38,520 nt of DNA from an uncultured Loktanella sp. (lineage in GTDB: Bacteria; Pseudomonadota; Alphaproteobacteria; Rhodobacterales; Rhodobacteraceae), in NCBI GenBank assembly GCA_937132065.1, contig CAKZNT010000029.1, positions 1 through 38,520 on the forward strand. The letters run 5' to 3'. The notes under the pieces are model-generated. The model was not told the origin of the DNA. It worked only from the letters and a program-made list of their open reading frames with translations, and ran no database searches. The translations under genes were made by a program, and so were the position numbers. Positions 2,145 through 36,707 of the stretch are shown here, piece by piece (positions within the stretch are counted from its first letter, which is position 1; each line of letters begins with the position of its first letter).

Positions 2145-3338
2145 GTGAACGTTCCGTCGCACGTAACCGTCTCAGGTTCCAATCGCTCGAATTTGTGGCC
2201 AGTCCTGCCTCTCGGCATCAAGAATGGTGTATCAGGCCAAGTGGGGCATCATTTGTTCGTCGGTCTTGGGACCGCGGGACTTGGGATGTATGCGCTTGAT
2301 CTTGACGCGCCGGAGGTCGGATGGCGCGCAATCGCGCCCTTTCCTGGCCCCGCGCGCGACAGTGCTGCCTGTGCCGTGGCAGGTGGTCGGCTCTATATCG
2401 CGTCAGGCTTGGGAAAAGTGACACCAGATGATCAAGTTGCACGAGTGCTGCAAGATGTCTATCAATATGATCCTCAACGCGATGCGTGGTTCAAACTGGA
2501 CACAGGAACACCGGTCGGATGTCTTGGCGCGTCTGCATTTGCAATTGATGACAATCGGATCGGGTTTGTCGGTGGGGTCAATACCGAAATTTTCGACAGG
2601 TTTATGCGTGCGGCAGCAACGGTTGACCCAGAGCAAGAACCGGAAAGCGGGCAGCGCATTCTGAATGAATTTATGTCCATGCCACCAGAAGATCATAAGT
2701 GGAATGCGAAGCTTTGGGTATATTCTATTGCGGAGAATGCTTGGTCTGAACTCGGCGATAACCCCTATTTGCCCAATACCGGTGCGGCCTGCGTCGCGGT
2801 GGAAAATGGGGTCTTTTTGATCAACGGTGAGATCAAGCCCGGATTGCGAACACCGCAAGTCAAGCGCATCACATTTCAGAACGGCATGGCCGTTTGGTCA
2901 GAGGAGAACCCGATCCCGCCGCTGGTCGGTCATCCCATTCAAGATGGGCTCGCGGGGGCGTACGCAGGTCGCGTGAATGGTGTCTTGCTTGTTGCGGGGG
3001 GCGCGAATTTTCATGGATCGCGCGCGGTTGCCGCCACGGGCGAATGGTATGCCCATCGCGGGCTGCAAAAGGTCTGGAACCGTGAGGTCTATGCAAAACG
3101 GGATGGTGTCTGGCATGTCGCGGGACGCCTGCCAATGGGATTGGCCTATGGTGCATCATTCGAAATTCCTGAGGGTTTGCTGCTGGTCGGCGGTGAAGAT
3201 CAACAGCAGAAGGCCCGCACCGATGTGCATTTGCTGACGTGGGATGATGTGAGCGGCAAAGCGACATGCACACGGCTACGACATTCCGACTTCAGGCAAG
3301 GGCAAAGACTGGGCCAACCTATCTGCAAGGAAATATGA
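2145..3338 (+). CDS. nanM: N-acetylneuraminate epimerase (mutarotase), kelch-repeat, NanM-like
   Basis: About 397 residues made of kelch-type beta-propeller repeats. NanM speeds the alpha/beta anomer change of Neu5Ac. The match I recognise is to E. coli NanM/YjhT: the opening blade GLGTAGLGMYALDLD, the FPGPARDSAA stretch, NGEIKPGLRT (E229 and R235, counterparts of the Glu/Arg implicated in E. coli), GGANFHGSR, YAHRGLQK, and LAYGASF followed by GGE. E. coli NanM is periplasmic with a signal peptide; here I see no hydrophobic leader, so the enzyme should act in the cytoplasm. I chose GTG at 2145 because GAAAGAG at 2131-2137 is well spaced from it; an in-frame TTG at 2139 is too close. It sits 22 bp after the lyase gene and just before nanE. 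Confidence 0.88.
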   Translation: MNVPSHVTVSGSNRSNLWPVLPLGIKNGVSGQVGHHLFVGLGTAGLGMYALDLDAPEVGWRAIAPFPGPARDSAACAVAGGRLYIASGLGKVTPDDQVARVLQDVYQYDPQRDAWFKLDTGTPVGCLGASAFAIDDNRIGFVGGVNTEIFDRFMRAAATVDPEQEPESGQRILNEFMSMPPEDHKWNAKLWVYSIAENAWSELGDNPYLPNTGAACVAVENGVFLINGEIKPGLRTPQVKRITFQNGMAVWSEENPIPPLVGHPIQDGLAGAYAGRVNGVLLVAGGANFHGSRAVAATGEWYAHRGLQKVWNREVYAKRDGVWHVAGRLPMGLAYGASFEIPEGLLLVGGEDQQQKARTDVHLLTWDDVSGKATCTRLRHSDFRQGQRLGQPICKEI

Positions 3339-3339
3339 C

Positions 3340-4020
3340 ATGAGCATTCTTGAAACATTGCGCGGCGGACTTGTTGTGTCGTGCCAGCCGGTTGATGACG
3401 GGCCGATGGATCGCCCCGAAATTGTGGCAGCCATGGCCGCCGCTGCTGTTGAAGGTGGGGCTGCCGGCTTGCGGATCGAAGGGGTTGCGAACCTGAAGGC
3501 CGCGCGCGCAGTCGTGTCCGTGCCAATCATCGCGATTCTCAAGCGTGACCTTGATGATAGCCCTGTCCGCATCACGCCGTATGTTGATGATGTGCAGGCG
3601 CTGGCGGAGGCGGGGGCCGACATTATTGCCTATGACGCAACCGACAGGCCACGCCCCGCAACATGTGAAGCGATCCTTTCCGCGATCCACGACGTTGGTG
3701 CGTTGGCCATGGCGGATTGTTCCAATCTGCAAGATGCACAACGCGCGGTGGCAAATGGGGCTGACATCATTGGCACGACACTGTCAGGATATACCGAAGC
3801 GAGTGCAGGCAAGACCGACGGTGTTGATTTCGATCTGATCCGCGCCTTCAGGGGGGTGGGGGCTTTTGTTATGGCCGAAGGTCGCGTGAATACTCCCGAT
3901 CTGGCTGGCGAAGCGATTGCAGCGGGCGCTGATGCAGTTACGGCTGGCACTGCGCTGACGCGGCTTGAAATCGTGACGGGTTGGTTCGGTGATGCGGTCA
4001 AGTCGGCGGGCCGGTCATGA
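3340..4020 (+). CDS. nanE: N-acetylmannosamine-6-phosphate 2-epimerase
   Basis: A 226-residue TIM-barrel protein of the NanE family, which converts ManNAc-6-phosphate to GlcNAc-6-phosphate. It begins with the family-typical LRGGLVVSCQPV and carries GLRIEGVANLKAAR, the catalytic lysine K68 in ILKRD, the AYDATDRPRP segment that contributes to the phosphosugar site, GTTLSGYT, and AEGRVNTP near the C-terminus. Length is normal for the family. The ATG at 3340 follows the nanM stop by one base and has AAGGAAA at 3327-3333. It feeds its product to NagA encoded three genes downstream. Identification is firm because these motifs are nearly invariant in NanE. Confidence 0.93.
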   Translation: MSILETLRGGLVVSCQPVDDGPMDRPEIVAAMAAAAVEGGAAGLRIEGVANLKAARAVVSVPIIAILKRDLDDSPVRITPYVDDVQALAEAGADIIAYDATDRPRPATCEAILSAIHDVGALAMADCSNLQDAQRAVANGADIIGTTLSGYTEASAGKTDGVDFDLIRAFRGVGAFVMAEGRVNTPDLAGEAIAAGADAVTAGTALTRLEIVTGWFGDAVKSAGRS

Positions 4021-9403: not shown

Positions 9404-11104
9404 TTGATTGATGGCTGCGGCGTGAACACCCTTTTTGTGGATAATGTCACCAAAGGTGACGTCCTGCACTGCGAGACAGGGCTAAGTTTTTGGGGCGGTG
9501 TCGACCCTGAAACGGGCGTGATTATTGACGCCCATCATCCTGATCATGGGACATCACTGGCGGGGCGGATCGTTTTGATGCCAACCTCGCGGGGATCGTG
9601 CAGTGGCAGCGGCGTCTTGCTGCAACTTGCGCGGGGTGGCAGAGCGCCTGCCGCGCTCGTTTTCCGCGAGACCGAAGAAATCCTGACCCTTGGTGCAATT
9701 ATTGCGGATCGGCTCTTTGCGCGGCCCGTTGCGGTTTTGCGCCTGACGCCAACGGCTTATGATGCCCTTGCCAAAGCGCCCATGGCAGAAATCAAGGGTG
9801 GGTCCCTCACCTTTTCCGGTCAGTCTCTGCCCTTAATGCGGCCCGATACAGACAGTATTTCTCTGCGTGACGCGGACAAAAACATGCGCGCTGGGCATGA
9901 CGGGCCAGCCCGCCAAATCGCGATGGACGTGCTATGCCTGATGGCGGCGGCGCAGGGGGCAAGTGAACTTATTGATGTGTCGCGGGGGCATATTGATGGC
10001 TGTATTCTGGCCCATGATGCCAATCTCGACTTTGCCGAAAAGATGCAAGAAATGGGCGCGCAAACCCTTATTCCGACGACAATTAATGCCATTTCGGTGG
10101 ACCGCGAGAACTGGACGACCCAAGGCGTTGTTCCCGACTTCGGCATAAAGGCAAGCCGCCTTGCCGATGCTTATGTCAACATGGGTGCGCAGCCAACGTT
10201 CACATGTGCGCCCTATCTACTGGACGATGCGCCCCGACAGGGTGAAGCGATCGGATGGTCGGAATCCAACGCTGTGATCTATGCGAACTCGGTCTTGGGC
10301 GCGCGCACGCAAAAGCATCCTGACTACCTTGATCTGTTCATTGCGATGACGGGCCGTGCCCCCAAGACCGGCGTTTATCTTGCTGAAAAACGCGTGCCAA
10401 TCTGCGAGATCAATGTCGCGGTTCCGGATGAATTTGACGACGCGCTCTGGCCGATGCTGGGGTGGCTGGCTGGTGCGAAATCACCGACGGGCATTCCTGT
10501 TTTGACCGGACTTGAGGCGCTCACGGCGACGCCTGACGACCTCAAGGCGCTTTGCGCCGCCTTTGGCACAACGTCCGCCGCACCTATGCTGCACGTGCGG
10601 GGCCATACGCCAGAAGGCGATCAGTCGTCCGTTGATGGCCTGCCGCGGTTTGAAATAACACGGGCCGATCTTGTCCAGCTATGGCAAGAGTTTAACATTG
10701 CAGATGGACAAATTGATCTCGTCGCAATTGGCAGTCCTCACGCCTCTCTGTCTGAGTGCCGCAGGTTCGCGCAATTGATGGGAGATGCGCAATGTCACGC
10801 GGGAACGCAGGCAATTTTGACTGTTGGTCGCACGGTTCATGCTGACCTGAAGAAAGACGGCACACTGGACAGGCTTAAACATGCGGGTGTCCAAGTGTTT
10901 CCTGATCTTTGCTGGTGTTCGATCACCGAGCCGGTTTTCCCCTCCGCTGCGTCAGTGTTGATGACAAATTCGGGAAAATACGCGCATTACGGTAAAGGCC
11001 TAACTGGTCGAGACGTCAGGTTCGGAAGCCTAAGAAACTGCGTGCGCGCCGCGATAACGGGGCGCGCGGATGCAGGGCTACCTTGGTGGCTTGCCGAACC
11101 TTAG
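9404..11104 (+). CDS. acnX: Fused aconitase X, probable cis-3-hydroxy-L-proline dehydratase
   Basis: A 560-residue protein with the small swivel domain (DUF126) at the N-terminus joined to the large catalytic domain (DUF521). The small domain shows GLSFWGGVDPETG, HHPDHGTSLAGR, PTSRGSCSGSGVL and VFRETEEILTLGAI. The large domain shows the DISRGH-like DVSRGHIDGC, IPTTINAIS, CAPYLL, GWSESNAVIYANSVLGARTQKHPDYLDL, and a late DLCWCSITEPVFP carrying Cys that may ligate iron. Fused AcnX proteins of this size in bacteria have been characterised as cis-3-hydroxy-L-proline dehydratases; the archaeal split form is a mevalonate-5-phosphate dehydratase. No proline-related partner gene is adjacent, so the substrate is inferred. 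The start is unsure: TTG at 9404 with a close GAAAGA, or GTG at 9422. Neighbours on both sides run on the minus strand, so it is a single-gene unit. Confidence 0.85.
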   Translation: MIDGCGVNTLFVDNVTKGDVLHCETGLSFWGGVDPETGVIIDAHHPDHGTSLAGRIVLMPTSRGSCSGSGVLLQLARGGRAPAALVFRETEEILTLGAIIADRLFARPVAVLRLTPTAYDALAKAPMAEIKGGSLTFSGQSLPLMRPDTDSISLRDADKNMRAGHDGPARQIAMDVLCLMAAAQGASELIDVSRGHIDGCILAHDANLDFAEKMQEMGAQTLIPTTINAISVDRENWTTQGVVPDFGIKASRLADAYVNMGAQPTFTCAPYLLDDAPRQGEAIGWSESNAVIYANSVLGARTQKHPDYLDLFIAMTGRAPKTGVYLAEKRVPICEINVAVPDEFDDALWPMLGWLAGAKSPTGIPVLTGLEALTATPDDLKALCAAFGTTSAAPMLHVRGHTPEGDQSSVDGLPRFEITRADLVQLWQEFNIADGQIDLVAIGSPHASLSECRRFAQLMGDAQCHAGTQAILTVGRTVHADLKKDGTLDRLKHAGVQVFPDLCWCSITEPVFPSAASVLMTNSGKYAHYGKGLTGRDVRFGSLRNCVRAAITGRADAGLPWWLAEP

Positions 11105-26880: not shown

Positions 26881-26909
26881 TTGCCCGCCCGATTTGGGCA
26901 ATCGTTTTT
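26881..26909 (+). terminator. Probable intrinsic terminator
   Basis: TTGCCC (26881-26886) pairs with GGGCAA (26896-26901) across a nine-base loop, and is followed by TCGTTTTT. It could end the exonuclease transcript, which stops 255 bp earlier, and so insulate the cassette downstream. Confidence 0.45.
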
Positions 26910-27013: not shown

Positions 27014-28099
27014 ATGTCGCCACGTATTCGCGTCTTTCCAACTGTCGGGTTTCTTGACAGTGACGACATTCAAAAGGCGGCGCGTGCCTCTTTGATGGGC
27101 CCGAAAACCCGCCTTCTCCCGAGTGGTTGGTCGTATTTCGACCGCAAGGCATTGGCCAAACTGCCGATAACGCCTGTTAAGGTTCCAACCCTGAAAGAGG
27201 CAGAAAAGACCGGCCTTGCGTTTTTGGCAAAGGCGCAGAAATCGTGGCAGGCCGCGGGCCAGAAGACCGCCTTGTTTCCGCTTGATACGGCCCTGTTCCG
27301 CATGACCCGTGTCGAAGGGCGGATGATCCGGTCTGGTAAGCGCAGCATCGGTTGGCGCGTGACATGGATCGTGTTTGCGGATGTCGGGTCAACCGCAGAG
27401 CGTGTCGCGGGAACCAAGGACGGGTTCACCCCTGTCGGCGGCGCATCCATCACATTGATTGTCTCGCTGACGGGCCGCGTGGTCGGAGGGTCAGCCACAT
27501 GGCGCCCGACTGCTGCGCCGATGGTTAAGCCCCAAAAGCAGACCCCCAAAGCCCTTATCGCCCATCTTGCCAAGAATATGGTCAAGAGCACGGATGATGA
27601 TCACGGCGCAACGAAGGCCAAGCCGAAAACCCCGCAATTGCCGACTGTCGAAATGCGCTATGTTCTTGGTGCGCGTGCGGAGTTCAACACGTTCCTTGAT
27701 CCCCGCCTGCTCTACATCCGTCCTGACGCCCATCACGCTCCGCCGCTATGTGTGCCGGTGACTGACTATGGTGTGTCCGTCGATATTATCAGCCTTGCGC
27801 TTAATTCTGGTCGCACGGGCGCAGACGGAGAGGTCGAGCTGCACCCTTGGATCGTCACAGCGGACGGGTCGATTTCGACGGCCACCCTCCCAAAAGGTTA
27901 CAAGGCACATTGGACAATAATTGATACGGGCAGCGACACAAATACCGCCCCCTCCAAGGTCGCTGGCGCTGGCATGTTGAAGCTCAAGGGGCTGGGCCGT
28001 GCCGCCCTGACAGTGACCAACCCCAACGGCGCAATTGCGCATGCACACGCTGATGTGTGCTCGTTTGTTGACGTTCCAAAAAGTAAGGCAATGGTATGA
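27014..28099 (+). CDS. Uncharacterised protein, first gene of the three-gene cassette
   Basis: 361 residues; I do not recognise the family. No signal peptide or membrane helix is visible. The N-terminal ~90 residues are basic and polar. Residues 95-170 look beta-rich (GWRVTWIVFADVG, ASITLIVSLTGRVVGGSATWRP). Residues 170-215 are a Lys/Pro-rich linker, and the last ~140 residues look like beta-sandwich sequence (YKAHWTIIDTG, then AGMLKLKGLGRAALTVTNPNGAIAHAHADV), loosely reminiscent of bacterial Ig-like folds. ATG 27014 is preceded by GAGGG; the frame also reads from a TTG at 27002. The stop overlaps the next start (ATGA), so the two proteins are probably made in fixed ratio. Confidence 0.8.
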   Translation: MSPRIRVFPTVGFLDSDDIQKAARASLMGPKTRLLPSGWSYFDRKALAKLPITPVKVPTLKEAEKTGLAFLAKAQKSWQAAGQKTALFPLDTALFRMTRVEGRMIRSGKRSIGWRVTWIVFADVGSTAERVAGTKDGFTPVGGASITLIVSLTGRVVGGSATWRPTAAPMVKPQKQTPKALIAHLAKNMVKSTDDDHGATKAKPKTPQLPTVEMRYVLGARAEFNTFLDPRLLYIRPDAHHAPPLCVPVTDYGVSVDIISLALNSGRTGADGEVELHPWIVTADGSISTATLPKGYKAHWTIIDTGSDTNTAPSKVAGAGMLKLKGLGRAALTVTNPNGAIAHAHADVCSFVDVPKSKAMV

Positions 28100-29451
28100 C
28101 TGATGATCCTAAACCAGTAACCGCCTCTGGCGAAATGACCGATTGGTCCTATGCCACGATTATCGAGCCTGAGGGTCTCTGTGTTTACGGTGTCGAGCAT
28201 GATGGCCATGTCTTTGCCGATCATGTTGGCTTGATCAAAACCTATGCCACCCATGTCGACACAAGCGGGAGCACCTTTGTTCCGATTGATCTGGGCACGG
28301 AGGGAATGAAGGTTGGCAAGCAGCCCTATATCGATAAGGTTCCTGCCCGCTCTCCCGATTTTTACTACCTCGCGAGCCATTCGATCTATGCGCCGTTTCG
28401 GATCAATAATGTTGCAGGGTCCGACCAAAGCCTAGGTGGCGTTCAACGGTTTTCGTTCACAGAAACCTCTGACACTCCCCGCCATGAAACCGCGCAAGTT
28501 GCGGCTGCGGGGCGGTTTTATCCGGACCTTCATTTTGCGGTATCGCCCCAGACCGACGAAGATCAAGGCGCCATCGAGAGCCTGCGGTTTGACTTTCAAA
28601 TCAAGCCTGATGTCGGACCAGGGGGGCGGCGCGAAAGCAGTGCCTTTATTCCTGGAGAACTGACGTTCGACAATATCATCGAGAGCTTGTTTGGCGAGGA
28701 TATAGCCAAGCAAGTGCCCCAACAGGCCGGCATGTTTCGTGATCGGGATCATTCGCTTTTGCATCGCGCATTATTCGCGGGCTGGCGCCCCGGCGAGCAG
28801 GTTTTTGAGGCGGCGGAAAAGCCGTTGCTATGGGAAATCGCGACCAGTGGCATCATCGAGGGTGGCACGCGCGGTTGGGATAATATCCATGTGTGGGGGT
28901 ATCATCCCAGCGGTGTGGTCTCGACACCCGGCATGCCTTACGGGATGCATCTGCATTGGCGCTGGTCGGCGGGCACGACGAACCGCCTGTCGATGCTCAT
29001 GGGCGATTGGACACCTGATTTTGCCCGCGCGCCCGAACTGGCGGGGCGCGATATTAGCGGCAACATGGTCCCGGGTGGGCCGCTGATTGATCCGCGTAAC
29101 CCCTTAACGGATTTGCGTATCGCTGTGGTCAAAAAGGCCACCGCAGATGCCTATACTGCCCTGACCCCTGATGGGCACGATGACTTTGTCGGGATGTTCA
29201 AGAAGATCAAGGCAAAGCCCGCAGACATTGAAGATGGTGATGAAATTGTGATCATCATTTCGATTGTGGTCCATCGTAAAGACCGCACAAAACGGTGGCG
29301 TGGCACGGTGTTCCCCCACGGCCTGTTTTTTCCACATGCGTATGACGTCGGTTATTTGGCCGAAAATGCGCTGACGCAAGCTGGTGCTTACAACCCTCAA
29401 TATTTGGACCGAAAGCCAGCCATCCGTCGTTGGGAACGCGACCCGAATTAA
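28096..29451 (+). CDS. Uncharacterised protein with an HLHWRW motif, second gene of the cassette
   Basis: 451 residues, no signal peptide or membrane helix; family not recognised. The most distinctive part is WDNIHVWGYHPSG (residues 261-273) followed by MPYGMHLHWRWSAG (residues 280-293) and GGPLIDPRNP (328-336). The closely spaced His and Trp could bind metal or a carbohydrate, but that is only a suggestion. The N-terminal 170 residues and residues 365-420 look beta-rich. I have a vague memory of HLHWRWG-type segments in other uncharacterised bacterial proteins and cannot verify it. Translation is coupled to the preceding gene by ATGA; 54 bp separate it from the next gene. Confidence 0.8.
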   Translation: MTDDPKPVTASGEMTDWSYATIIEPEGLCVYGVEHDGHVFADHVGLIKTYATHVDTSGSTFVPIDLGTEGMKVGKQPYIDKVPARSPDFYYLASHSIYAPFRINNVAGSDQSLGGVQRFSFTETSDTPRHETAQVAAAGRFYPDLHFAVSPQTDEDQGAIESLRFDFQIKPDVGPGGRRESSAFIPGELTFDNIIESLFGEDIAKQVPQQAGMFRDRDHSLLHRALFAGWRPGEQVFEAAEKPLLWEIATSGIIEGGTRGWDNIHVWGYHPSGVVSTPGMPYGMHLHWRWSAGTTNRLSMLMGDWTPDFARAPELAGRDISGNMVPGGPLIDPRNPLTDLRIAVVKKATADAYTALTPDGHDDFVGMFKKIKAKPADIEDGDEIVIIISIVVHRKDRTKRWRGTVFPHGLFFPHAYDVGYLAENALTQAGAYNPQYLDRKPAIRRWERDPN

Positions 29452-29505
29452 CACGACCCCGCAGGGGGACCAATTTTTCGAATTTATAACTTAAGGAGAT
29501 TTAAA

Positions 29506-32500
29506 ATGCAGACCAATGCTATGACAGCGATTGCCCGTTTTGTGAATGTGCGCGCCCCTCAAGATGTGAAGGACATGGATTTCCAGCGACTGGATATGTT
29601 TGGTGCGCCATCCAGTTTTGAGTCCAAGCTTGTTGAAGGTGTAGCCGAGGGCAAGATTCAGGATTCCGATCATATGCGCGAAGTTGCCAAGGCGCTGGTT
29701 GAGGAGACATCGGATCAGTTAACCCCATTGGATATTGATGACGCCGTGCGCGCGGCCCTGATGCCTCGCGCCCAAAATGCAAACGCAGCCTCCAACATTA
29801 TCAAAGCCCGCTTGGGAAAACCTCCAAAGCAGCTGCTCGCGAGCCGTCAGTTCCTCAAGGCGTGGCATGACGGTTGGGAGCGGTATTACGGCCTAAGCGT
29901 GCTTGGCAAGGAACGCCGCGAGTTGGCCAACCAGTTGCGTGCCATTGAAGTGCTGAACCGCCTTCAGGGTATGAAGCCTTCCGAGAAAACACCGACATGG
30001 ACTGATGCGTTAACATGGCGCTTGAAGGTTCCCAAGGTTCTGTTCCAGCCGCAGCGCGCCCGTGAACGTGGCAAGGATGAAGCCGCAGAAGAGATGCTGC
30101 GTGACGTCAGGAAGCTCCATGACGAGATGTCCGTGATTGACGCGATCAAGAAAAGAGCCCGCAGCCACGACGCCTATTATTACAAGAAAGGGGACGGTGC
30201 GAAGCTTGAGGTTCAGATCATCAAACAGCCACCCGGCAAGGCCGTTCCGTTGGCCGTTCAGATCGAAGGCGCGGTAATGCAAGACCGGTTGAGCCAGCGC
30301 TCGGAACTTAAGGCGCTGTCTGGTCGGCTTTCACAGCGGATCGGTGAAATCAAAGGTGCGAACCTTGAGGGCGAAGTGGACGTGGAGCCGCAAAACTGGC
30401 TTGTGAAGGAAATTGCGTTGCCCGCCAACAAGTCGATTTTCTCGGCCAAAGAGCATGGCTATTTACAGGAGCAACGTCATGTTGCCCTAAAGAACCCCGA
30501 ACTTGGTGCGCTCGATGAGATCAGCAATGACCTCTACAAGCGGGTCAAGACACTGCTGGTGGACCCTGATCGCGCCGTGCCCGAAATGGTAGCGAAAGCG
30601 CCCGAGACAAAGGCGCTGACCAAGGGAATGAAGCTGCCAAAGTCGAAATATGGCAGCCGTGGTTTTGCGACCGCCGCAGCATCCATGCCCCGCGTGCATG
30701 TCTTGGGTGTTGGTGATCTCGTTGTGATCGAGGAGCAGATCAACCGCTATGAAATGGGCGAGGTAGCTCATATCGAAAATGTCATGGCAACGGAAACCCG
30801 GTCTCGCAAACACGTCCGCACCTCCGAGACAGAGACTACCTCGACGAGCGAAGTCGAGGAAACGGCTGTTGATGAAAAGTCACTGCAAACGACAAACCGT
30901 TTCGAGCTGACCAAGGAAACCGAGAGCCAGATTGAATCGTCGCTCGAGATTACTGCGGGCGCTTCGGTTACCGCTGGTTACGGCCCTGTTTCGGTCACGG
31001 CCAATGCGGGCATCACCAGTTCAACAAGCGCCTCAAGCGGCAAGTCAACCGCATCAACCCTGTCGCGCGAAGCCGTGGAAAAGGCTGTTTCGACGGTGAC
31101 CAAGCGGGTCCGCGAGGAGCAGATCATTCGTGTGCTGAACCGTATCGAGGAGACAAACGAGCACGGGTTTGCCAACACCACCGACTCCCATATTTGCGGC
31201 ATCTATCGGTGGGTCGACAAGTATATCAACGTGCGTGCCGTCAACTATGGCCGTCGTCTGATGCTTGAGATGATTGTGCCTGAGCCTGCCAACGGTCTGC
31301 TTTATGCGCAAGATATGCACTCTGATGAAGTGGTGTTCGCCGAGCCGCCTGTGCTCAATATCGGTCCTGATGATGTGTCTCGTTACAACTATCTTGATCA
31401 TGCCGAGACCTATGGCGCGGTTGATATTCCCAGCCCGCCCAAGCAGGTGATCTACCAAACACTTAACTACGGCAACCAGTCGGGCGGCGATCAAAAGCAG
31501 TTTGCCGATACAGGCAAGAGCATGGTGATCCCGCAGGGCTACGAGACAACCAATGTCTGGCGTGGCGGATATTATATCCACTATGACGACTACAAACGTC
31601 ATCACCTTGCCGGCTCGAAAACGGTTCCCGGGTCTGACTCTGTTCTGACGGGCGTTGTGGGGAGCTTGCAGCTTGGGTCGGTTACCGAATGCGTGGCCTA
31701 CATGGCTGGCTGGAAGGTGCGGTGTGAGTTGCTTGATGAGGCCTATGACGCTTGGCGCGTGACGGCGTGGGCTGCCTTGAAGCAGGCCGCAGAGGCTGCA
31801 CAGGCCGCTTATGAAGAACGCGTGGCGGCTCATGCTATTGGTCAAGGTGTTCACATCGAAGGCCGCAATCCTGACCACAACAAAGAGATCATGCGCAACG
31901 AGTTGAAGCGTGCAGCCGTCAAATACTTGTCCGAAGACATGGGCGAATTGATTGTGGATGGCACGGTGCGCACCAACGAGGTCTTTGATGCAGCGGATGC
32001 AACGGGTGACTTTGATCTGGACGAGGCCCGCATTGAAGGCAAGATCATCCAGTTCTTTGAGCAGGCGTTTGAGTGGCACAATATGACATGGTTACTCTAT
32101 CCCTACATGTGGGCACATTCATCGCGTCAGCACCACAAGTTGCTTGCCGAAGATCCAGATCCAGCGATGCGCGAGTTTCTTGGGTCAGGTGCTGCGCGTG
32201 TCGTGGTTCCCGTTCCGGTTGCCTACGAGGATGCGGTGCTTAACTATTTCGAGACGAATGAAATCTGGAATGGTGGCGACAGTCCGATTGTTGACGACCC
32301 GCAATATGTGTCGATTGCAGAGGAGCTAAAGCAGGGCCGCACCAATTCGTTCAATAGCCCGATCTATTACGAAAGTGCATCTACCCCGCCGCCGTTCATC
32401 ATTGACGAATGGGAGGTCAAGTTGCCGACATCACTGGTCAAGTTACAGGCCGACGATGTGCTGCCAACCTTCCCTGTCGGGCTGGGTGAGACCGACCCGA

Positions 32501-32736
32501 GTGTCCTGCTTGATGCTGCGGTGCAGACCACAGGGAAGGGTGCGGGCTGGCGCAACTCGATCATTGATTTGCTGACGCTATTTGGTGTCGCAAATGGCCA
32601 GAACGAAGCTGTGCGTCGCTCCTTTGCCGAGGACAATGGATATACGGGTGATGCTGATACGGACGTGATCGCGAGCATCGACAACTGGAGTTACTTCTAT
32701 GTGATGAGCAGTATTTCCCTGAACGGCATGCCGTAG
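29506..32736 (+). CDS. Large uncharacterised protein (1076 aa), third gene of the cassette
   Basis: The start is certain: AAGGAG at 29492-29497 is ideally spaced from ATG 29506. There is no signal peptide, membrane helix or nucleotide-binding motif. Residues 1-400 are charged and helix-rich. Residues 430-520 are rich in Thr, Ser and Glu, including a stretch of alternating polar and apolar residues (EITAGASVTAGYGPVSVTAN, 481-500) ending in Ser/Thr repeats. Residues 520-600 (REAVEKAVSTVTKRVREEQ, then YRWVDKYINVRAVNYGRRLMLEMIVPEP) look conserved in style. A short coiled-coil-like helix lies at 755-780, then GRNPDHNKEIMRNELKR and FFEQAFEWHNMTWLLYPYMW (850-869), GAARVVVPVPVAYEDAVLNYFE. I recall similar sequence patterns in other large bacterial proteins without assigned function. 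Function unknown. Confidence 0.85.
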   Translation: MQTNAMTAIARFVNVRAPQDVKDMDFQRLDMFGAPSSFESKLVEGVAEGKIQDSDHMREVAKALVEETSDQLTPLDIDDAVRAALMPRAQNANAASNIIKARLGKPPKQLLASRQFLKAWHDGWERYYGLSVLGKERRELANQLRAIEVLNRLQGMKPSEKTPTWTDALTWRLKVPKVLFQPQRARERGKDEAAEEMLRDVRKLHDEMSVIDAIKKRARSHDAYYYKKGDGAKLEVQIIKQPPGKAVPLAVQIEGAVMQDRLSQRSELKALSGRLSQRIGEIKGANLEGEVDVEPQNWLVKEIALPANKSIFSAKEHGYLQEQRHVALKNPELGALDEISNDLYKRVKTLLVDPDRAVPEMVAKAPETKALTKGMKLPKSKYGSRGFATAAASMPRVHVLGVGDLVVIEEQINRYEMGEVAHIENVMATETRSRKHVRTSETETTSTSEVEETAVDEKSLQTTNRFELTKETESQIESSLEITAGASVTAGYGPVSVTANAGITSSTSASSGKSTASTLSREAVEKAVSTVTKRVREEQIIRVLNRIEETNEHGFANTTDSHICGIYRWVDKYINVRAVNYGRRLMLEMIVPEPANGLLYAQDMHSDEVVFAEPPVLNIGPDDVSRYNYLDHAETYGAVDIPSPPKQVIYQTLNYGNQSGGDQKQFADTGKSMVIPQGYETTNVWRGGYYIHYDDYKRHHLAGSKTVPGSDSVLTGVVGSLQLGSVTECVAYMAGWKVRCELLDEAYDAWRVTAWAALKQAAEAAQAAYEERVAAHAIGQGVHIEGRNPDHNKEIMRNELKRAAVKYLSEDMGELIVDGTVRTNEVFDAADATGDFDLDEARIEGKIIQFFEQAFEWHNMTWLLYPYMWAHSSRQHHKLLAEDPDPAMREFLGSGAARVVVPVPVAYEDAVLNYFETNEIWNGGDSPIVDDPQYVSIAEELKQGRTNSFNSPIYYESASTPPPFIIDEWEVKLPTSLVKLQADDVLPTFPVGLGETDPSVLLDAAVQTTGKGAGWRNSIIDLLTLFGVANGQNEAVRRSFAEDNGYTGDADTDVIASIDNWSYFYVMSSISLNGMP

Positions 32737-32769
32737 GCGCTTGGCTAAACTGCCTTAACGAAAATCTGT

Positions 32770-32802
32770 GCTTGTCCGGTATCCCCGGGCAAGCATGTTT
32801 TT
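32770..32802 (+). terminator. Intrinsic terminator closing the unknown cassette
   Basis: GCTTGTCCGG (32770-32779) pairs with CCGGGCAAGC (32785-32794), ten base pairs with one G-T wobble and a five-base loop, followed by ATGTTTTT. It lies 34 bp after the 1076-residue gene. An A-run on the left side (32761-32764) means it may also work for the converging minus-strand importer operon. Confidence 0.8.
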
Positions 32803-36248: not shown

Positions 36249-36707
36249 TTAGCCAGTCACCCACATTTTCATCGGCGCGTAGAAGTTCATCAGGCCGAAC
36301 CCTTTGCTTGGCCCCCAACCTGCAACCTTATCGGATGTCGCGTCGATAAAGTTGTTGAACATCGGCGCGATCAGGCCACCCTCGTCACGCACGATTGTGC
36401 CCATGTCGGCATACATGCTTGTGCGCTTGGCCACGTCAAGTTCGCCGCGTGCCGCAACGAGTAACTGGTCGAACTGCTCGTTAAAGAAGCGGGTGTCGTT
36501 CCAGTCCGCGCTTGATGTGTAGGCCGTGGAGAACATCGCATCCTGTGTCGCGCGACCACTCCAGTAGCTGGTGCAGAATGGCTGCTTGTTCCAGACTTCG
36601 GACCAATAGCCGTCGTTTGGTTCACGTTTGATTTCCAGATCAATGCCGTGGATGACCTCAACGTTGCCATAGGATTTCTTGACGTTCTTCAGAATGACTT
36701 CAACCAT
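36249..36707 (-). pseudogene. In-frame chimera: UgpC/MalK-type ATPase start joined to dipeptide-binding-protein end
   Basis: 152 residues. Residues 1-27 (VEVILKNVKKSYGNVEVIHGIDLEI) are the classic opening of a sugar-importer ATPase of the UgpC/MalK type and stop before its Walker A. From about residue 28 (REPNDGYWSEVWNKQPFCTSYWSGR, then DEGGLIAPMFNNFIDATSDKVAGW) the sequence is the C-terminal part of a family 5 dipeptide-binding protein. The junction is near 36625-36645. The product lacks a signal peptide, the ATPase core and most of the binding protein, so it is almost certainly non-functional. The ATG keeps its ribosome-binding site (AAGGGG) from the ATPase gene. Confidence 0.85.

Follow-up and report, generated by a model that had tools for sequence, protein, structure and literature searches.

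We analyzed a 38,520-nucleotide stretch of contig CAKZNT010000029.1 from an uncultured Loktanella sp. (Rhodobacteraceae; assembly GCA_937132065.1), referred to below as the window, and within it three adjacent genes (genes 1, 2, and 3), the largest of which, gene 3, belongs to a family found across phyla beside varying enzyme genes. A sequence-only reading of the window had taken the three for real genes forming a self-contained cassette. All three open reading frames (ORFs) were recovered on the plus strand with the positions and sizes given in Table 1, as were the Shine-Dalgarno sequence that it had proposed for gene 3 and the terminator at the end of the unit; the ATGA that it had read as translational coupling lies at 28096 to 28099, where genes 1 and 2 overlap. 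Consensus scans for terminators returned 15 sites, compared with 7.3 in shuffles. Together, genes 1 to 3 look like one transcription unit. Since homologues of all three keep the same order in a gammaproteobacterial metagenome-assembled genome (locus L036), they are more than chance ORFs. The absence of membrane helices was also borne out, as none of the three proteins has a hydrophobic 19-residue segment; no dedicated signal-peptide program was used. The source genome (2.94 Mb in 92 contigs, 94% complete) holds one copy of gene 3.

Table 1. Features of the three-gene unit, in window coordinates
Feature	Position	Strand	Size or residues	Remarks
Terminator-like hairpin preceding the unit	26881-26901	+		Consensus scan only
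Gene 1	27014-28099	+	361 aa	No known family; partner of gene 2
Gene 2	28096-29451	+	451 aa	Putative payload; low-confidence predicted copper-amine-oxidase-like fold, TPQ (topaquinone) motif absent
H285-x-H287 of gene 2, candidate metal site	28948-28956	+	285-287	Invariant in five aligned sequences; putative metal binding
Shine-Dalgarno AAGGAG of gene 3	29493-29498	+		7 nt ahead of ATG 29506
Gene 3	29506-32736	+	1076 aa	Common core protein of modular cassettes
Gene 3 N-terminal helical module	29506-30630	+	1-375	
Gene 3 conserved core	30694-32475	+	397-990	
Gene 3 long beta strands, stem-like	30697-31281	+	398-592	AlphaFold2; pLDDT (predicted local distance difference test) mostly <50 in 449-539
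Amphipathic beta-hairpin	30940-31017	+	479-489 / 494-504	Candidate membrane-inserting element; putative function
Jelly-roll beta-sandwich of gene 3	31441-31734	+	646-743	
DUF3597-like C-terminal extension	32500-32727	+	999-1074	Putative peptidoglycan binding
Intrinsic terminator of the unit	32767-32797	+		13-pair stem with T-tail

Gene 3 and its exchangeable partners

When a gene 3 profile built from 14 cores was scanned once across the genomes of 84,980 species, it matched at 366 places. The 80 top-ranking matches, which were kept, lie in Pseudomonadota, Bacteroidota, Actinomycetota, Chloroflexota, Verrucomicrobiota, Bacillota, Cyanobacteriota, haloarchaea, and other groups. Common to the family is the core (residues 397 to 990), which is 56% identical between the window and L036, has Y415, E419, N425, P592, W750, and W857 among the positions invariant in 73 sequences, and has no counterpart among the Pfam, NCBIfam, PHROG, and PADLOC models. 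A tblastn search of plasmids returned 12 records, including Ensifer, Streptomyces, Chryseobacterium, and the haloarchaeon Natronorubrum; the Chryseobacterium plasmid (L013) is typed mobilizable. Four IMG/VR contigs bearing the cassette family (L097 to L100) are filed as viral. Among 50,697 phage records there was no match, and the source genome has neither Phage_sheath_1 nor Phage_base_V; a phage origin was rejected. In a tree of 84 rows, made by a quick method from loci whose ORFs were called mechanically, relatives from different phyla interleave, and the distribution is patchy, not following phyla; on this tree the cassettes appear to move between phyla. Within the order, 5 of 292 genomes, the source included, carry a relative, which is absent from the same-genus genomes among those listed; locus L002, from a genome of the same family, is identical to L071, so that Roseobacter belongs to this family and the host to the Alphaproteobacteria. 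In an open-access literature search we recognized no description of the cassette, a result that cannot show the family to be unpublished.

We tabulated 98 gene 3 loci, near-duplicates included. A gene on the same strand follows within 400 bp in 86 of them, and in 44 of 77 nonredundant loci the stop-to-stop frame of the partner starts at most 20 bp from the end of gene 3. With the partner defined as the first downstream gene of at least 200 residues, 84 were listed and 83 (all except that of L034) scanned against Pfam. The families found were patatin phospholipase (14 partners), protein-arginine deiminase (PAD), Het-C, PhoD, and peptidase M23 (4 each), phospholipase D (PLD; 2), and, once each, Amidase_3, SPOR, Rv2525c-type, VWA7_N, pre-toxin TG, PPK2, and FAD amine oxidase. 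The four M23 partners come from near-identical Micromonospora loci, two of the PhoD rows are one locus entered twice, and a pair of patatin loci is 94% alike. No phage-tail or injection gene was present among these partners, although the neighborhoods were not scanned whole for such genes. As a coarse control, a patatin-partner model matched 15 of the 86 genes directly behind gene 3 but, among 805 ORFs lying farther away in these loci, 3, of which the one in L010 actually follows gene 3 in the annotation; adjacent genes, including one from L050 that is no patatin, had served to build the model. The listing of that L050 partner as a patatin was wrong: the 275-residue gene matches the gene 1 profile and no Pfam family.

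When partner labels were placed on the gene 3 tree (84 cores, 70 labeled), 34 changes were counted, with 14 as the minimum; shuffled labels gave a mean of 50.9, and none of 200 shuffles fell as low as 34. Because 34 lies far above the minimum, this tree-based count shows partner exchange across gene 3 lineages.

The patatin and PLD partners resemble known defense effectors, and PADLOC phospholipase effector models matched 6, 2, and 1 of the 83 partners, with four DrmC models matching 1 each. It is conceivable that gene 3 remains inside the cell as a sensor and membrane-active scaffold and, in an anti-phage or programmed-death response, turns the partner enzyme on its own cell. The patchy distribution and the lack of membrane segments in genes 1 to 3 are consistent with this possibility, as are the small Trypco1-like gene in some loci and the absence of an evident immunity gene from the gene 3 loci, in which genes of fewer than 100 residues were not called and some of which end at a contig edge. 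However, genes 1 to 3 matched none of the PADLOC defense families at an E value of ≤1, and the M23 partners and the peptidoglycan- or carbohydrate-binding-type tails of gene 3 point outside the cytoplasm, so that a self-directed system seems to us unlikely, if by no means far-fetched. The small gene is one of a family of six (L045, at 9777 to 10109, L049, L057, L087, L032, and L038) that lies directly behind a short gene 3; in five of the six loci the N-terminal module is a separate upstream gene. The L045 member, the only one run against Pfam, matched Trypco1 (PF19493), which PMC7159879 names in conflict systems.

The sequence-only reading had regarded co-occurrence across distant taxa as support for a system, and homologues found only singly, or membership in a characterized family, as evidence against one. 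Genes 1 and 2 occur in this order near gene 3 in six loci representing five phyla or classes (Alphaproteobacteria, Gammaproteobacteria, Myxococcota, Chloroflexota, and, twice, Bacteroidota), one of them incomplete. Relative to L036, gene 1 is 33% identical over 376 residues and gene 2 is 47% identical. In L077, L051, and L035, a gene 2 relative stands beside gene 3 and immediately behind a gene 1 relative; L050 has two gene 1-like genes and an ORF matching only positions 310 to 450 of the gene 2 profile. The homology of gene 1 is remote: hhalign gave 93%, with a collinear alignment, against the other four loci together and 89% against three, but only 1 to 26% when L035/L051, L077, or L050 was taken apart. 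In L036, as in the window, genes 1 and 2 come before gene 3; elsewhere they follow it. On the tree, the six tips bearing this module require five changes, all forced by starred branches, and the module is about as scattered as shuffled labels. Genes 1 and 2 are one partner module, which stands with different gene 3 lineages. A search for gene 2 away from gene 3 in samples of 398, 301, and 395 genomes from three phyla matched only the center genome of each, and gene 2 was not found in plasmids or viral contigs. Searches of genes 1 and 2 against Pfam, NCBIfam, PHROGs, and PADLOC returned nothing beyond one chance-level PHROG match (E value of 0.35), and gene 1 had no significant match to PDB sequences. 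The idea of a self-contained multi-protein system is well supported by the co-occurrence of genes 1 to 3, and homologues of genes 1 and 2 are neither found only singly nor clearly members of a characterized family. Gene 3, however, is not tied to this pair and forms the core of a much wider set of cassettes with other partners; the suggested toxin-like character fits several partner enzymes. Two further arrangements were seen: L077 (10099 to 17015; Bacteroidota) combines gene 3 with both a patatin gene and the gene 1-gene 2 module, and in L036 an FGE-sulfatase (formylglycine-generating type) gene (2905 to 3996) lies upstream of the three-gene cassette.

The surroundings of the unit differ from what had been proposed, since its upstream neighbor is a DnaQ-type exonuclease and no metabolic enzyme. 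Base composition shows no clear shift relative to the flanks. In a same-genus empty-site comparison, the ABC transporter of the window is syntenic in L128 and L129, but the exonuclease never adjoins it in five same-genus stretches, so that no clean empty-site junction was obtained. A 152-residue ORF at 36249 to 36707 on the minus strand resembles, by eye, the start of an ABC ATPase over its first ~20 residues and the C terminus of a solute-binding protein over the remainder. The alignment with its relatives in L128 and L129 begins only at residue 21, making a rearranged junction likely.

Predicted architecture of genes 3 and 2

Eight loci, including three near-identical ones from Legionella, encode the N-terminal module of gene 3 separately, in an upstream gene (family F2). 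Behind this module, AlphaFold2 predicts, at low confidence, long strands around the amphipathic hairpin that resemble a membrane-inserting stem. The paired alternation of the hairpin was reached by 30 of 2,000 column permutations. Alternation in a single strand was dropped as proof of a membrane hairpin, as a maximum as high as that observed occurred in 722 of 2,000 permutations. Among the Foldseek/VIA rows for gene 3 we recognized no pore-forming toxin except a pesticidal Cry protein at the jelly roll; this absence excludes nothing, because the jelly roll filled the list.

Viral capsid and cement proteins are among the structural matches of that jelly roll. Together with the beta-rich core and the varied enzymes adjoining gene 3, they would suit a large nontoxic shell or complex housing a metabolic partner enzyme, and adjacent varied enzymes are a layout known from cargo-loading compartments. 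We consider such a scaffold or particle improbable; if it were one, this large orphan family would still gain a function.

The sequence-only reading could name no family for any of the three proteins, which holds for genes 1 and 2 but not for the C terminus of gene 3. Residues 999 to 1074 align with positions 52 to 123 of the DUF3597 profile (PF12200; E value of 2.1e-5), scoring 25.5 bits where the cutoff is 29.8; the corresponding extension in L036 exceeds the Pfam cutoff. DUF3597 is called putative peptidoglycan-binding, without being described, in PMC11674121. Gene 3 matched no other Pfam family at an E value of ≤1 and no toxin domain. The gene 3 tails of L097 and L088 gave weak matches of peptidoglycan- or carbohydrate-binding type. 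The C-terminal extensions in L060, L074, and L088 are related to one another and, by eye, peptidoglycan-binding-like; Pfam returned only chance-level matches for them, in L088.

For gene 2, structure prediction weakly suggests a copper-amine-oxidase-like fold (model pLDDT, 50.5; Foldseek template modeling scores to the query, 0.17 to 0.34). The NY[DE] motif, which is that of the TPQ cofactor, is absent from all five gene 2 sequences, and by eye WDN[VI]H stands ahead of the HxH instead. At an E value of ≤1, gene 2 matched no Pfam family, PF01179 included; it showed no profile similarity to five real copper amine oxidases and had no relative among PDB sequences at an E value of ≤5. With no sequence link to real oxidases, an oxidase reading would draw on a weak model and motifs picked by eye. 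The predicted fold could still indicate an ordinary secondary-metabolism or amine-oxidation operon to which gene 3 is incidental, but the missing cofactor motif and the position of genes 1 and 2 beside scattered gene 3 lineages argue against this, and we give it hardly any credence.

A possible carrier-payload cassette

A stem-like module and a wall-binding-like tail that stay constant, next to variable enzymes attacking lipids, proteins, or walls, suggest a carrier with a payload. In appearance the cassette is a device for delivery or killing, one that the databases searched do not name, and we put somewhat short of even chances on the window holding one form of a modular cassette of carrier and payload, toxin-like against other cells. 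Building on the homology, co-occurrence, and partner exchange described above, we infer that gene 3 would be the common carrier, consisting of the helical N-terminal module, the long beta-stem with its amphipathic hairpin, the jelly roll, and an alpha/beta C-terminal part, here with a peptidoglycan-binding-like tail. The neighboring gene or genes would be the exchangeable enzymatic payload, in this case gene 2, possibly a metalloprotein remodeled from a copper-amine-oxidase fold, together with gene 1, apparently its dedicated partner. After release, gene 3 would assemble on the target envelope, presumably as an oligomer, and its hairpin would enter the membrane, perhaps as part of a pore; a docked payload could thereby be brought to or across the target membrane, the whole acting as a two-component (carrier plus enzyme) toxin on other cells. 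Since there are no membrane-type segments and no obvious immunity genes, the target could be some other cell, a eukaryote, or the producing cell.

Several observations weigh against a carrier with payload. Genes 1 to 3 lack membrane-type segments and the source genome has no match to Phage_sheath_1 or Phage_base_V, so that no exit route is evident. At least 44 of the 83 partners have no Pfam family at an E value of 1e-3, so that most payloads would have no known activity, and the polyphosphate kinase and FAD amine oxidase partners may be plain neighbors. All-against-all hhalign comparison of 36 partner families revealed no convincing shared docking domain, the best pair being a short match (63%, 64 columns). 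A single same-strand downstream gene is found in 28 of 85 loci, the others having more or none. Among genes of at least 100 residues, and with some loci ending at a contig edge, no immunity gene is evident, an argument against a toxin of the classical antibacterial type. For the gene 1-gene 2 module, the five changes may be gains or losses, which are indistinguishable; the single-strand alternation in gene 3 is ordinary; and no match of gene 3 to the PDB reaches an E value of 1e-3.

Alternatively, the cassette could supply cargo to a contractile injection system whose genes lie at another site in the genome. The spike family Phage_base_V occurs in 23 of 41 gene 3 genomes (excluding L067), L036 among them, a count that has no matched control. 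It is missing from the other 18, and the source genome, nearly complete as it is, contains neither Phage_sheath_1 (PF04984) nor Phage_base_V (PF04717), the sheath family of type VI secretion systems not having been searched. As the source genome lacks it, the spike protein seems not to be required, and we judge an injection cargo very unlikely.

A bolder form of the carrier-payload reading, which we regard as rather doubtful, is that gene 3 is the founding member of a class of carriers, so far undescribed and common to bacteria and archaea, that insert into membranes and deliver exchangeable enzymes from adjacent genes, and that the payload in the window, a copper-amine-oxidase fold that has lost the quinone cofactor, is a new metal-dependent effector. 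In any case, gene 3 defines a cross-phylum family of 366 matches in one scan, with a core lacking a curated model in the libraries searched and with many partners that attack lipids, proteins, or cell walls. Were the delivery device real, it would be a widespread unnamed weapon or defense in which natural payload swaps could be studied.

Among known systems, the copper amine oxidases (PF01179) may be like gene 2 in fold, and the HxH invariant in the five gene 2 sequences is a candidate for the copper-ligand pair of these oxidases; they carry the NY[DE] cofactor motif, whereas gene 2 has neither this motif nor profile similarity to them. The tail of gene 3 is like DUF3597, exceeding the gathering score in L036 but not in the window. 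In polymorphic toxin systems, one conserved part is likewise combined with exchangeable toxin-type parts (PAD, Het-C, pre-toxin TG, and peptidases); there, however, the toxin is fused C-terminally and an immunity gene adjoins, whereas the putative payloads of gene 3 are separate genes and many gene 3 loci show no evident immunity gene (again among genes of at least 100 residues). By sequence, gene 3 matches none of the Pfam families of aerolysin/ETX-type or two-component toxins. Two-component toxins and aerolysin-like pore formers are large and beta-rich, with long strands flanking a short amphipathic hairpin rich in Ser, Thr, and Gly, a layout that is predicted for gene 3 as well, and in two-component toxins the enzyme is encoded by a neighboring gene, as in the gene 3 cassettes; what sets these cassettes apart is the range of unrelated enzymes found next to a single family of putative carriers.

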